From NCBI GenBank assembly GCA_919901875.1, contig CAKKQG010000455.1, forward strand, positions 1 to 13,284: a stretch of DNA of 13,284 nucleotides. The letters run 5' to 3'. The notes beneath the pieces were generated by a model. The model was not told the DNA's origin and did no database searches. It worked only from the letters and a program-made list of their open reading frames with translations. This DNA comes from Anaerolineales bacterium. Lineage in GTDB: Bacteria; Chloroflexota; Anaerolineae; Anaerolineales; VGOW01. Shown piece after piece: positions 990-6,723 of the stretch. How positions within the stretch are numbered: position 1 is the stretch's first letter; each line of letters starts with the position of its first letter. Both the position numbers and the translations under genes were made by a program.

Positions 990-1017
990 TTGACATGGCG
1001 AGTATGTTGCATATAAT
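990..1017 (+). promoter_or_regulatory. Consensus sigma70-type promoter
   Basis: TTGACA at 990-995 and TATAAT at 1012-1017 are both exact consensus hexamers, separated by 16 bases. The predicted start, 7 bases after the -10 box, is G1024. That is the first base of the 5' strand of a folded RNA (see 1024-1092). It is the best promoter in the window and lies in the gap between the TRAP permease and the DUF3800 remnant. Confidence 0.8.
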
Positions 1018-1023
1018 CAAAGT

Positions 1024-1092
1024 GCGTCTGGGATGAGTCGCTAAGCGTCTCTTCTTGGGGCTTTCAGCCCTAAACCCAGTCGCGTTTTTTTT
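1024..1092 (+). ncRNA. Putative structured small RNA or leader (three-way junction plus U8 tract)
   Basis: The RNA expected from the promoter at 990-1017 folds by hand into a compact three-way junction. P1 pairs 1024-1032 with 1075-1083 (GCG-U-CUGGG with CCCAG-U-CGC, one U-U mismatch). P2 pairs 1035-1041 with 1045-1051 (GAG-U-CGC, loop UAA, GCG-U-CUC, again one U-U mismatch). P3 pairs 1055-1062 with 1066-1073 (core GGGCU/AGCCC, loop UUC). The joining strands are very short: AU, UUC and A. P1 closes directly before eight Ts at 1085-1092, so the 3' end looks like an intrinsic terminator. This gives a free RNA of about 69 nt, or a leader whose readthrough feeds the DUF3800 gene 20 nt further on. 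I do not recognise the family. The pairing is direct sequence evidence; expression and function are inferred. Confidence 0.55.
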
Positions 1093-1112: not shown

Positions 1113-2015
1113 ATGCATCTCTGCTACATTGACGAATCAGGAACACCCGATATTCCTGGTAACACGTCTCACTTTATCCTTGCCGGTATTTCGATTCCGA
1201 TCTGGCATTGAAAAAGTTGCGATACAGAAATCGAAATCATCAAAAAGAAATACGCTTTGGATAATTCGGAAATCCATGTCGCTTGGATGCAAAGACCTTA
1301 CTTTGAACAATCTCGCATTCCAAATTTTGAGGCGTTGGACTACAAACAACGTCGAATGCAAGTAGAGAGCTTACGTCACGTCGAACTGTTGAGGCTGCAG
1401 CGAACAAAAAACCCAAAATTATACAAACAGACTCGCAAGAATTATCGTGAGACCGCCAGCTATATTCATTTGGGTTACAACGAACGACAAACGTTAGTCA
1501 AAGAACTCGCGCGATGTGTTTCAAAATGGGGATTCGCCAGGCTCTTCGCTGAGTGCATTGATAAAGTTCATTTTGTTTCGGCACGGACGATGCGCTCAAT
1601 TGATGAGCAAGCCTTTGAGCAAGTGATCTCACGGTTTGAGCAATACTTACAAAACACCAGCCGCAATACTCCTTCCCCGTCTTATGGTTTACTGATCCAC
1701 GACAACAATGAAACGGTTGCCAAAAAGCATACTGCTCTGATGAAAAACTTTCATCAACAGGGAACTTTCTGGACAACGATAAAAAGCATCATTGAGACTC
1801 CCTTGTTTGTAGACAGCCAACTGACGAGCATGGTGCAGATCGCTGATTTATGCGGTTATGCGTTACGTCGTTATCTCGAAAATGGGGAGGACGAACTTTT
1901 TGATTTGCTGTTTGAGCGCGCAGATCGCAAAGATGGCGTGGTTGTTGGTGTGCGACATTTTACGAAACCGAGCGGCTGTACCTGCAAAATATGTAATGCA
2001 CATAAACGATCTTAG
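1113..2015 (+). pseudogene. DUF3800 family protein, interrupted by an in-frame TGA
   Basis: The frame starting at ATG 1113 gives MHLCYIDESGTPDIPGN, the hallmark N-terminus of DUF3800 proteins, an RNase H-like fold of unknown role often found in mobile or defence contexts. It runs to IPIWH and hits TGA at 1209-1211 (codon 33). The same frame then continues without shift for 267 more codons to the stop at 2013-2015. Family members typically have Trp here (IWHW), so one TGG-to-TGA change explains the break. Later conserved features are intact: SEIHVAWM, IHD (Asp about 197), FVDSQ (Asp about 234), QIADLCGYALRRY (Asp about 245) and a C-terminal CTCKIC cysteine cluster. A TTG at 1257 could restart translation but would lose the YIDES motif with its acidic residues. 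A GAGG lies 13 nt before ATG 1113. The break is a genuine mutation or a base error. The family call is strong; loss of function is likely but not certain. Confidence 0.82.
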
Positions 2016-2038: not shown

Positions 2039-2074
2039 AAGAACCCCGCTTTCTTCAAAGAAAGCGGGGTTCTT
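2039..2074. terminator. Bidirectional intrinsic terminator between convergent genes
   Basis: A perfect 17-base inverted repeat, AAGAACCCCGCTTTCTT and its complement, is separated by only CA, so in practice it is a stem of about 14-15 bp with a small loop. It is followed on the plus strand by TTATTTAACT and later a T6 run, and on the minus strand by TGTTTAATAAA. It sits 24 bases after the DUF3800 stop and could stop transcription from both sides. Confidence 0.85.
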
Positions 2075-4182: not shown

Positions 4183-5934
4183 CTAGCTCTCATATTCTCC
4201 CAACACCGTACACCACTTCTTCACCGCTTCGTATCGCTTGGCGGGTTGTTTGGGGAAGACGATGGGGCGGCCTCGGGCGTCAATAATCAGGCCGACGGCG
4301 CCACCTTTGACAGTGATCGTTTTAGAAGTCCCCGCGCCGAATCCGGCATCGAATCCGCTGTAGGGTTGAATGTTGACTTTCGCTTCTTGATCGGCGGGCA
4401 GAGGGATCACTTGCAGCGTGCCGAATTGAATCTTGAGATCAGTTTTCTCGCCATTCTTGGGTTCTACTTTAATCCGCGCGACTTCTTGAGCGGCTCGCGC
4501 CTCGCCGACGAGTGAGATAGCTGTGCCGAGATTCATAAAGCTGCCCGACTCCATTATTTGCACGGTCGCCGTTGGGTTGAGGGCAGAGACAACGCCCAAC
4601 GCGGGCGCGAGGGTGTACGTATCCAAAATAAAATTTGTCACGCCGCAGGGTTGAAGCCCATCGAGGACGATCAACGCCGCTTGCCCCGGTTTGGGCGCGC
4701 GAGTTAGCACCGCGCCATCAATGAGTATGTTGTCGAAGTAAGGCGTGAGGCTGGGTCCACTGCCTTTGACGCTGGCGGGATAGATTGGCAAAGCAGAGGC
4801 GAGGGTGATCTGCAAACATTCGCGGGCTAAAGCGTGTTCAAGATAGAGATCATCTAACTCTTGCGGCACGGAGGCTGGCGCGAGTGATTTGTTGTAAATG
4901 TAATCGCGCATGGTGTTGGGCGAAACTTCACGCGGCAGCCATCGCGTCAGACGATCCAGAGTCGTGTAGTGAAGGACGTTGACCGCGTTGTGTCCCACGC
5001 CAATATCGGGGCGCGTCATCAAGGACAGTCTGCCGCGAAACGAAGCGGCAAGTGACGTCGCCGAGGATCCAATATCAATGCCGAGCGCGCCGTTGTCGGA
5101 CTTGTGAAGTCGATTCAAATAATTAACGACGAAGCCTTGCGCTTGCGCCGTCGGCAGCACGCTTCCGCCCCAACGGGCGATCTCCGAATACCCGGCGATG
5201 CGCCCGATGCGAACATGTTCGTAGATGGTGCTGAGTTGGCGGCGCGCCGGATCAATGTTTTCTCGATCTAATTCGGGGCGCATGTTTTCCGCTTCGGTCA
5301 CTTCACATAATCCTTCAAACCGTTTTTTTACATCGGCACGAATATCACGATTGCCGCTATAGAGAACTTCGGGGCGTTTGTTTTGCGGCATGAGGCGGAT
5401 CGCCATGATCGCCGTATCTACTAAACGCAGCACCGCGCTCTTCGATCCGTGCTCGGTGCCACCGGCGATGATAAGGATGTCGGGCTTGGCGGCGAGGAAC
5501 GAATCGATCTGCTGTTCTTCGCGGCGGCGATCACCCAAACTGAGAACCTCGACGACCTTTAAATAATTCGATCCGGCAACTTTTTGCGCGGTGGCGACCG
5601 AGACGTTGGGCATAAGACCCACAATCGCCACACGCAGCGCTTCCCCGGCGCTGGAGGTTGCCACCAGAGAGTCGGCGCCACTTCCGTCGGCTTGGCTGGG
5701 GATGATGAAGTGTTCGGACTCATCGAGGAATCTGCGTCCGGTCACTTCACTCAATTGATCCAATGCTTGGCGCACGCCTTCGCCCATATCGTTAAAGGGA
5801 AGTTCGATGGTGGTGCGCGCTTGACCGGAAGCGACGAAACGAAATTCGCCACCGGCAATATCCAACAAAGCAACGCGGGTGTAGATGTTGCCAATGTCAA
5901 CAGCGAGAAGGGAGTCTGTGGGGGCGGTAGGCAT
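4183..5934 (-). CDS. MutL-family (glutamate mutase L-like) ASKHA ATPase
   Basis: This 583-residue soluble protein belongs to the GlmL/MutL group of the actin-Hsp70-sugar kinase fold. It is unrelated to the mismatch-repair MutL. The first phosphate-binding motif is LLAVDIGNIYTRVALLD (residues 9-25). A second half begins with GALGIDIGSSATSLAASF (282-299). DILIIAGGTEHGSKSAVLRLV (152-172), a SGSFMNLG-type loop and the C-terminal GGAVGLIIDARGRP are also typical. In Clostridium the homologue lies between the two glutamate mutase subunit genes and is thought to help keep the B12 enzyme active. No mutase gene is present here, so this member probably serves something else, such as its 352-residue neighbour or the upstream membrane cluster. 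ATG 5934 is chosen because DIGN follows at the usual distance; no Shine-Dalgarno precedes it. It is longer than GlmL itself (about 460 residues from memory). The family call is strong; the function is unknown. Confidence 0.85.
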   Translation of the reverse strand: MPTAPTDSLLAVDIGNIYTRVALLDIAGGEFRFVASGQARTTIELPFNDMGEGVRQALDQLSEVTGRRFLDESEHFIIPSQADGSGADSLVATSSAGEALRVAIVGLMPNVSVATAQKVAGSNYLKVVEVLSLGDRRREEQQIDSFLAAKPDILIIAGGTEHGSKSAVLRLVDTAIMAIRLMPQNKRPEVLYSGNRDIRADVKKRFEGLCEVTEAENMRPELDRENIDPARRQLSTIYEHVRIGRIAGYSEIARWGGSVLPTAQAQGFVVNYLNRLHKSDNGALGIDIGSSATSLAASFRGRLSLMTRPDIGVGHNAVNVLHYTTLDRLTRWLPREVSPNTMRDYIYNKSLAPASVPQELDDLYLEHALARECLQITLASALPIYPASVKGSGPSLTPYFDNILIDGAVLTRAPKPGQAALIVLDGLQPCGVTNFILDTYTLAPALGVVSALNPTATVQIMESGSFMNLGTAISLVGEARAAQEVARIKVEPKNGEKTDLKIQFGTLQVIPLPADQEAKVNIQPYSGFDAGFGAGTSKTITVKGGAVGLIIDARGRPIVFPKQPAKRYEAVKKWCTVLGEYES

Positions 5935-5992: not shown

Positions 5993-6006
5993 ACAAACAG
6001 GGTCAA
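5978..6006 (-). promoter_or_regulatory. Weak candidate promoter of the MutL-family gene
   Basis: Minus strand: TTGACC (6006-6001, overlapping the end of the PIN gene), a 17-base spacer, then TGCAAT (5983-5978). The boxes match at 5 and 4 of 6 positions. The start would be about 37 bases before ATG 5934. It may be only internal to the longer operon. Confidence 0.3.
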
Positions 6007-6443
6007 TCCTGGTTCTGCTGTTCACGCAGTATTTGCAAAAAAGGAATGGCTTTCAGGATTTTTATGCCGAGATATTCCCCGCCGAGTGAATCAAAGTGCG
6101 GGTCGTAGGTGATAATGTAATCGGCTTTGCCAATCGTGGCGCAAGCAAGCACAACATCGTCATCCGGGTCTGCCAAGACTCGCACGATGGATTCCGAAGG
6201 CACTTCGACCCACTCGGCTAATTGCTTTAACACGGCTATTTGTTGGGCGGCGACAAGCGGCGGGGCAGCCCGTTCGATCAGTTTCTCGGTGATCTCATCA
6301 CTCAGAGCTTCGCAAATGAGCAGAACAAACTCTTCGCGCTCCCAACGGGCTAATAATTCTTTAGTCGGGCTGTTGCTGTTTTTGCTAAGTGCCGCCGACA
6401 AAAATACGTTGGTATCGAACACTGCCCGAAGTCGTTTAGTCAT
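6003..6443 (-). CDS. PIN-domain toxin (VapC-like, COG1569 type)
   Basis: This is a 146-residue putative RNase toxin. The ATG at 6443 is preferred over the in-frame TTG at 6461 because it has AGGGAG 9 nt upstream and puts the first acidic residue at the usual place (RAVFDTNVFLSA, Asp10). Other PIN acidic positions are visible: Glu50 in SDEITEKL, Asp94-96 in ADPDDDVVLACA, and Asp114 in ADYIITYDPHFDSL. They are expected to bind metal ions at the nuclease site. The reading frame overlaps the upstream antitoxin gene by 8 bases (ATGACTAA), the usual arrangement for a toxin-antitoxin operon. VapC-type toxins cut specific RNAs; the target of this subgroup cannot be told from sequence. All key residues are present, so it is probably active. 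Confidence 0.85.
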   Translation of the reverse strand: MTKRLRAVFDTNVFLSAALSKNSNSPTKELLARWEREEFVLLICEALSDEITEKLIERAAPPLVAAQQIAVLKQLAEWVEVPSESIVRVLADPDDDVVLACATIGKADYIITYDPHFDSLGGEYLGIKILKAIPFLQILREQQNQD

Positions 6444-6723
6444 GCTCCCATTCTCCCTCAATAGCCGTGCCTCGCGCTATGGCGTTGGCGCGAATGATTT
6501 CCAAGTTATCATTGAAGCGTTTAAATAATTCGGCGCGGGACAGTCCCTCAAATTGTTGAGTGAGACGTGCCGCTTCCGCTTTGATTTCTGCCAACGAAGG
6601 TCGAGGGTGATCGCGTTTAAGTAAGCCGACAAATTCCACCACGGCAACTAAATCTCGGTCAGGCAAGAGAATGACTTCCCGAATCGCTTCACGCAACAAT
6701 TCAGTTGAATTAGTTGTATTCAT
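6436..6723 (-). CDS. Antitoxin partner of the PIN toxin
   Basis: This is a 95-residue protein encoded just before the PIN toxin, with an 8-base overlap. The N-terminal half (LREAIREVILLPDRDLVAVVEFVGLLKR, about 10-38) follows the 'LP-x-x-x-L-x-x-V-x-x-F-V-x-x-L' pattern of small antitoxins. The C-terminal half is helical and charged and ends GEWEHD, suitable for wrapping the toxin. The start at ATG 6723 has AAAGGA 8-9 nt upstream. No clear ribbon-helix-helix or AbrB signature is visible, so DNA binding and autoregulation are uncertain. The assignment rests mainly on position and size. Confidence 0.7.
   Translation of the reverse strand: MNTTNSTELLREAIREVILLPDRDLVAVVEFVGLLKRDHPRPSLAEIKAEAARLTQQFEGLSRAELFKRFNDNLEIIRANAIARGTAIEGEWEHD

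Follow-up and report, generated by a model that had tools for sequence, protein, structure and literature searches.

Why should a small structured RNA, furnished with a promoter and a terminator of its own, stand directly in front of a DUF3800 gene in a member of the Anaerolineales, and what might it do there? The window, by which we mean the whole 13,284-nt stretch of DNA analyzed, comes from a draft genome (G000) of 2.63 Mb that is 64% complete. In it, a DctM transporter gene lies 5′ of a unit made up of promoter, RNA, and DUF3800 gene. The original prediction read the RNA either as a stand-alone transcript of about 69 nt or as a conditional terminator of the DUF3800 gene. Elsewhere in the window, on the minus strand (6003–6723), two overlapping small genes resemble, on visual inspection, a PIN-domain toxin and its antitoxin.

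The promoter is of the sigma-70 type, lies on the plus strand at 990–1017, and matches the consensus exactly (12/12), as had been claimed for it: TTGACA at 990–995, a 16-nt spacer, and TATAAT at 1012–1017. No other site in the window scored above 9/12 in the promoter scan. Promoter-like sites were not in excess in the window (6 observed vs. 8.7 expected), so the promoter by itself is no evidence for a functional unit. Among 58 related loci, 45 carried a sigma-70-like site of at least 9/12, compared with 7.7% of composition-shuffled upstream stretches. In these 45 loci the second hexamer ended 3 to 12 nt 5′ of the RNA (at 6 nt in 24 of them), and the distance from the −10 box to the RNA was 6 or 7 nt in 35. 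In an uncontrolled count, three of the four Bacteroidota copies carry TAnnTTTG 4 to 6 nt 5′ of the RNA in place of the sigma-70-like site; we take this motif to be the Bacteroidota promoter box.

At the other end of the RNA, a U8 tract (1085–1092, plus strand) was read from the sequence as an intrinsic terminator, with stem P1 forming the base of its hairpin. The tract had been described as following P1; it is present, but G1084 intervenes between the two. At least five T residues occurred within 8 nt 3′ of the RNA in 55 of 58 loci, and the Leptospira copies have no U tract. A further probable terminator, also read from the sequence and absent from the output of the scan that scored the promoter, is a 15-bp perfect inverted repeat with a 6-nt loop that lies 3′ of the DUF3800 gene (2039–2074, plus strand).

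The RNA between these signals (1024–1083, plus strand) is predicted to fold into a three-way junction. P1 pairs 1024–1032 with 1075–1083 around a U-U at 1027/1080, P2 (1035–1051) pairs 1035–1041 with 1045–1051 around a U-U at 1038/1048, and P3 (1055–1073) pairs 1055–1062 with 1066–1073. The three stems, the single U-U mismatch in each of P1 and P2, and the predicted start at G1024, the first paired base, were all as originally proposed. The stretch 1024–1092 folds at −30.8 kcal/mol (z = −5.3), with none of 200 shuffles equally stable and a single dominant fold (MFE frequency 0.50, centroid identical to the MFE structure). The RNA scored 81.6 bits against model R1, of which it is itself a member. 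A second R1 match in the window (5594–5651, minus strand, 19.8 bits) is at chance level.

The fold was tested on an alignment of 60 related RNAs, 59 of them distinct. Under the nested three-way junction, 12 of the 22 listed pairs had changes on both sides, amounting to 63 cells vs. a shuffle mean of 12.6, and none of 500 shuffles matched any of five measures. The signal disappeared when the pairing partners were slid against each other. RNAalifold, unaided, recovered the same fold, with both-side changes in 13 of its 21 pairs. The arrangement thus exceeds chance, as the original prediction held, and the condition that would have refuted that prediction, homologues with no compensatory changes in the stems, did not occur. 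The sequences of P1 and P2 are nearly invariant, whereas that of P3 varies while its helix is kept (5 of 6 P3 pairs changed on both sides). Counted as pairs, the U-U positions failed the covariation test (non-standard in 57/59 and 59/59 cells), and these unpaired positions are U-U in the majority of rows.

P1 and P2 have a GCGUCU/AGUCGC module in common. Of the 60 rows, 49 have the same GCGUCU strand in the two stems, 52 the same AGUCGC strand, and 44 agree in both strands. The two modules are altered in the same way in L169 and in L194, but the most frequent variant, GCGCCU, is found in seven rows in P2 with no matching change in P1. The common module would also permit a tandem two-hairpin fold, which we set aside as less well supported, as it has 7 pairs with both-side changes vs. 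12 for the nested fold. Its columns 7–12 and 29–59 never pair, whereas 7–59 and 8–58 of the nested fold covary; positions common to both folds do not discriminate between them.

No Rfam 15 family reached its gathering score anywhere in the window. At E values up to 10, the only families to appear in region 940–1130 were suhB, at 21.6 bits, and c4-2, at 13.4 bits, each with a cut-off of 41, and both the suhB/mmgR and the c4-2 identities were set aside as sub-threshold. Nine loci of the window's RNA class likewise had no Rfam 15 match. The original statement that no known class could be recognized therefore holds against Rfam 15, though DUF3800-associated RNA motifs are already known as a kind. 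Weinberg et al. reportedly described such motifs, DUF3800-I to -XI, in 2017; like the window RNA, these are structured RNAs of unknown function adjoining DUF3800, and the window RNA, found beside DUF3800 in many genomes, has the features of such a motif. RF02969 is DUF3800-I according to the available text of one source (PMC11701678), and that of another mentions DUF3800 together with putative ncRNAs (PMC10910872). DUF3800-IX (RF02968) also adjoins a DUF3800 gene and forms a three-way junction in which P1 closes two hairpins before a U-rich 3′ end, but it differs in sequence, has an uninterrupted 11-bp P1, and lacks the U-U modules. The window RNA misses its gathering score and does not match it even at E 10.

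Two DUF3800-IX RNAs occur in the window's own genome, at two other DUF3800 genes (minus strand of contigs 421 and 356, L011:2099–2182 and L012:2110–2177). Both lie on the opposite strand, directly 3′ of and convergent with distant DUF3800 relatives, and by this placement they are again separate RNA genes. Searches near three DUF3800 genes of G001 and near DUF3800 genes of E. coli and Klebsiella plasmids found no Rfam RNA, and these genes lend no support to a general association of DUF3800 with such RNAs. A stretch before DUF3800 in a small E. coli or Klebsiella plasmid (L200:2397–2500), with a like stretch in L201, is structured (z = −4.2) and has a strong hairpin and T5 just 5′ of the ATG, with no Rfam match; it may represent a further class of DUF3800 RNA. 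In plasmids of Neisseria, Pasteurella, and others, short matches are confined to the GGGGCTTTCAGCCC part; two of the 32 (L008 and L009) were inspected and dropped. Those two (L008:3001–3040, Pasteurella; L009:3001–3040, Neisseria) contain a GGGGCTTTCAGCCCT hairpin with a T-rich tail, equal to P3 of the window, near replication genes, and are probably ordinary terminators. The window RNA is thus a new class relative to Rfam 15, and it may equal a 2017 motif outside Rfam. We found no published account of the class or of its opposite-strand, solitary, and phage copies in the literature covered, which does not include the 2017 motif paper, and both the class and these copies seem to be novel.

By DNA search, the RNA was recovered from two genomes of the same genus, G004, with the complete layout, and G001, where only the 3′ end of DUF3800 is left beside it. 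The search also found a Leptospira weilii plasmid with the RNA 16 nt 5′ of an annotated DUF3800 gene. Protein searches with the G004 and Leptospira DUF3800 sequences identified 60 loci in genomes and 6 in viral contigs. The RNA adjoins DUF3800 at 56 of the 60, 54 by consensus match and two by model R1 (L172 at 33.1 bits, L186 at 26.9 bits), and at all six viral loci by consensus match. A recognizable full RNA was absent from four genome loci, L183 (3′ half only), L185, L190, and L193, in three of which DUF3800 is fragmentary. The start codon lies 11 to 53 nt 3′ of the RNA. Whole-genome searches with the model covered 32 genomes, of which 31 hold a single copy and one gave no match, and the 71 upstream stretches inspected held one RNA unit per locus and no tandem repeats.

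In a scan of 400 Chloroflexota genomes, 21 matched at E 0.01. Seven matches of at least 37 bits were taken as real; the remaining 14 (24 to 30 bits) were treated as chance, DUF3800 not being present in those loci. DUF3800 is full length beside three of the seven (G244, G032, and G222). In the others it is broken by a stop (the window), reduced to N-terminal residues (G061) or C-terminal residues (G001), or not present (G188). At the G061 locus (L207), DUF3800 ends after about 36 residues in unrelated sequence, and the RNA (58.3 bits), a promoter-like site, and the U tract persist. A scan of 392 genomes from the phylum of a Planctomycetota genome gave three matches at 1e-5, each with DUF3800 adjoining the RNA.

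In the protein tree, the rows that carry titles span 13 phylum-level groups and are intermixed (18 changes vs. a minimum of 12, in a tree with only 6 of 36 branches firm), and horizontal transfer across phyla is likely on this evidence. RNA and protein distances correlate (Mantel r = 0.73 over 38 loci, 0 of 5,000 permutations; r = 0.47 over 35 loci after long branches were dropped), which indicates that RNA and DUF3800 travel together. No recurrent third gene appeared among 112 flanking proteins (from 140 picked at 58 loci), the commonest Pfam family matching three of them, and by the same sample the loci do not lie mainly among defense genes.

The DUF3800 gene of the window (1113–2015, plus strand) has an in-frame TGA at codon 33 (1209–1211). 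Its protein reaches the Pfam cut-off for PF12686, which matches the two pieces separately and also across the frame. Since TGA terminates 6 of 11 checked frames in the window, the one in DUF3800 is read as a real stop. The gene is disrupted at 20 of 62 loci, a count to which assembly errors and contig edges (L177 and L189) may have contributed, with a frame called full when open for at least 285 residues. The RNA could be aligned at 15 of the 20 disrupted loci vs. 38 of 39 open ones. Its survival beside a broken gene would also be expected without selection, because a stretch of 60 bp presents a smaller target than one of 900 bp.

With 3,064 protein clusters at E 0.001, the family of the protein is large, and residues D7, E8, D196, and D244 are invariant in all 39 sequences chosen. 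By the fold of its structural model, which is common to RNase HII/RNase H2, the protein is a putative RNase H-type nuclease resembling RNase HII. Comparison with ten RNase HII proteins gave no sequence-profile link (hhalign probability 0.5%), and a Foldseek search with the model gave no match at E ≤ 0.001 (best 4.5e-3). Matches of the protein in PADLOC were weak, and there were none among named phages.

Several copies of the RNA stand apart from DUF3800. At L172 (Planctomycetota) it is encoded on the strand opposite to DUF3800 and directed away from that gene, with TTGACG and TAACGT boxes 5′ and a U7 tract 3′. The scores of the two strands there are near each other (33.1 bits on the minus strand vs. 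30.3 bits on the other) because the RNA resembles its own complement, and it is the U tract that decides the strand. In G188, a genome 96% complete, the RNA scores 79.4 bits, is preceded by TTGACA and TAATAT boxes, and ends in a T-rich tail; a search of this genome for DUF3800 found none. Together with the phage contigs described below, these cases uphold the proposal of a stand-alone transcript of about 69 nt; judging from sequence context, the RNA is a gene in its own right.

Scans of IMG/VR gave 15 records with full-length RNA. Nine have an open DUF3800 (L194, the near-identical L195–L199, L235, and the apparent copies L264/L267), L236 and L237 have the RNA and only the first ~30 DUF3800 residues, and four have no DUF3800 in the contig (L075, L082, L110, and L250, with the printed flanks of L082 and L110 looking identical). 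In L099, a 38-nt RNA (5772–5809, minus strand, no DUF3800) keeps P1 and P2 and is missing P3; at 36.2 bits it was retained as doubtful. Neighboring genes are those of phages: a DnaB-like helicase and a UvsX-like recombinase in L075, an endolysin in L082, a portal protein in L250, portal and terminase in L099, a terminase in L236, and helicases in L237. The L082 RNA has a TTGACG-N18-TATTAT site and a U6 tail, and the L250 RNA has no clear promoter or U tract. These contigs may be incomplete or decaying prophages, so that the absence of DUF3800 holds for the contig and not necessarily for the phage. L236 and L237 look like phage capture of a host locus.

Viral pattern matches below 50 bits were dropped as probable chance (L238, L263/L265/L268, L270, L053, L260, L272, L225, L229, L233, and L223). 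Of the first pattern's viral matches, only L053, L075, L082, L099, and L110 were scored with the model. The window, L250, and L099 RNAs had no match in the named-phage collection.

We consider it somewhat better than an even bet that these elements form a self-contained, horizontally mobile two-part module, in which a small RNA gene (1024–1092) restrains the DUF3800 nuclease and the solitary phage copies act as decoys. The promoter-like site would place the start of the transcript on the first P1 pair or beside it, and the U tract 3′ of P1 would end the RNA, with few transcripts reading through into DUF3800. Since DUF3800 begins 11 to 53 nt downstream, which mostly leaves no room for a promoter of its own, most transcripts should be the RNA and few should include DUF3800. 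With most transcripts stopping at the U tract, the RNA should outnumber DUF3800 mRNA. The protein may bind the RNA through the conserved P1 and P2 modules with their U-U mismatches. Excess RNA would hold the nuclease inactive, like the RNA antitoxins of type III toxin-antitoxin and AbiF pairs, and a phage RNA with no intact DUF3800 would be an antitoxin decoy protecting the phage. An abundant RNA paired across phyla with a scarce and often broken nuclease fits an RNA antitoxin. Weighing against this reading are the single-unit RNA, loci placed mostly outside defense-gene neighborhoods, weak PADLOC matches, survival of the RNA beside broken genes that selection need not explain, phage contigs that may be fragments or decaying, no profile link to RNase HII, and no match of the three RNA queries among named phages. 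We put at a little under even the further idea that unrelated phages took the RNA alone (once without P3) as a decoy and that other DUF3800 RNA motifs are antitoxins of other DUF3800 clades.

The layout of ToxIN is promoter, RNA, terminator, and nuclease gene. The window unit has the same order, its RNA gene lying directly 5′ of the putative toxin gene with a terminator between them. Type III antitoxins are repeats, whereas the window RNA is a single unit with no tandem repetition; RCd22 has two motifs. The protein folds of these comparison systems are the ToxN fold and the HEPN fold, unlike the RNase H-type fold predicted for DUF3800. According to the available text of PMC3475682, phage PhiTE carries a pseudo-ToxI that serves as a ToxIN decoy, an escape phage having gained host ToxI by recombination; such antitoxin mimics are comparable to the phage RNA copies found here. 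The available text of PMC12373285 has RCd22 neutralizing toxic AbiF in cis and in trans, the same logic with another protein family. One combined literature search turned up no related type III family.

The RNA might instead be a cis-acting leader, either an attenuator or a site of autoregulation, through which the DUF3800 protein or a ligand alters termination and so controls the DUF3800 gene. In 55 of 58 loci a terminator does stand directly 5′ of the gene, with the start codon close behind, and readthrough seems to be the route of DUF3800 expression. Such a leader would always be a same-strand 5′ UTR of the gene it regulates, but the L172 RNA lies on the opposite strand, G188 has no DUF3800 and keeps the RNA along with its promoter-like site and its U tract, and phage copies lack the gene too. 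In addition, the Leptospira copies have no U tract, and the window RNA has one dominant fold in which no competing antiterminator was seen. Because the RNA occurs on the opposite strand and without DUF3800, the original suggestion of a conditional terminator is less likely as the main role, although readthrough probably sets the DUF3800 level; we regard the leader explanation overall as unlikely. Far less probable still is a hairpin terminator that arose by chance, or a small RNA that stands in front of DUF3800 with no connection to it. Promoter-like sites are not enriched in the window, terminators 5′ of genes are common, and there is the weak suhB/mmgR resemblance, but chance is contradicted by the adjacency to DUF3800, the conserved promoter and U tract, and sequence, covariation, and position conserved across at least 13 phylum-level groups.

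The RNA could also be a working part of an RNA-protein effector, as activator, scaffold, or sensor, with phage copies competing for the protein, much as crRNA-like decoys compete for an effector protein. The one-to-one pairing, the predicted RNase H-type fold, and the solitary phage copies fit this equally, and an activating RNA would also account for most observations. DUF3800 proteins adjoin some CRISPR effectors, according to the available text of two papers (PMC10910872, PMC12669027). An RNA-guided nuclease would have a variable guide segment, but here the conserved 60 nt pass directly into the U tract (55 of 58 loci) and leave no variable guide within the transcript, and the RNA excess over protein implied by the layout fits an inhibitor better. 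On balance an effector part seems rather unlikely, and restraint of the nuclease by the RNA is the reading we retain.

DUF3800 proteins are widespread and nuclease-like, with no established function, and some others are likewise tied to structured RNAs; the available text of the literature that mentions DUF3800 assigned these RNAs no function. The present pair is compact and highly conserved and could be cloned as a single ~1.1 kb piece from an intact relative, so that the question of what DUF3800 RNAs do becomes directly testable by co-expression, with the solitary phage RNAs predicting the direction in which the RNA acts. The layout across phyla and the gene-less phage RNAs hint at an RNA-controlled toxin or defense pair. 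If this is true, the remaining DUF3800 RNA motifs, which have lacked an assigned function since 2017, would by extension serve as the cognate antitoxins of other DUF3800 clades.
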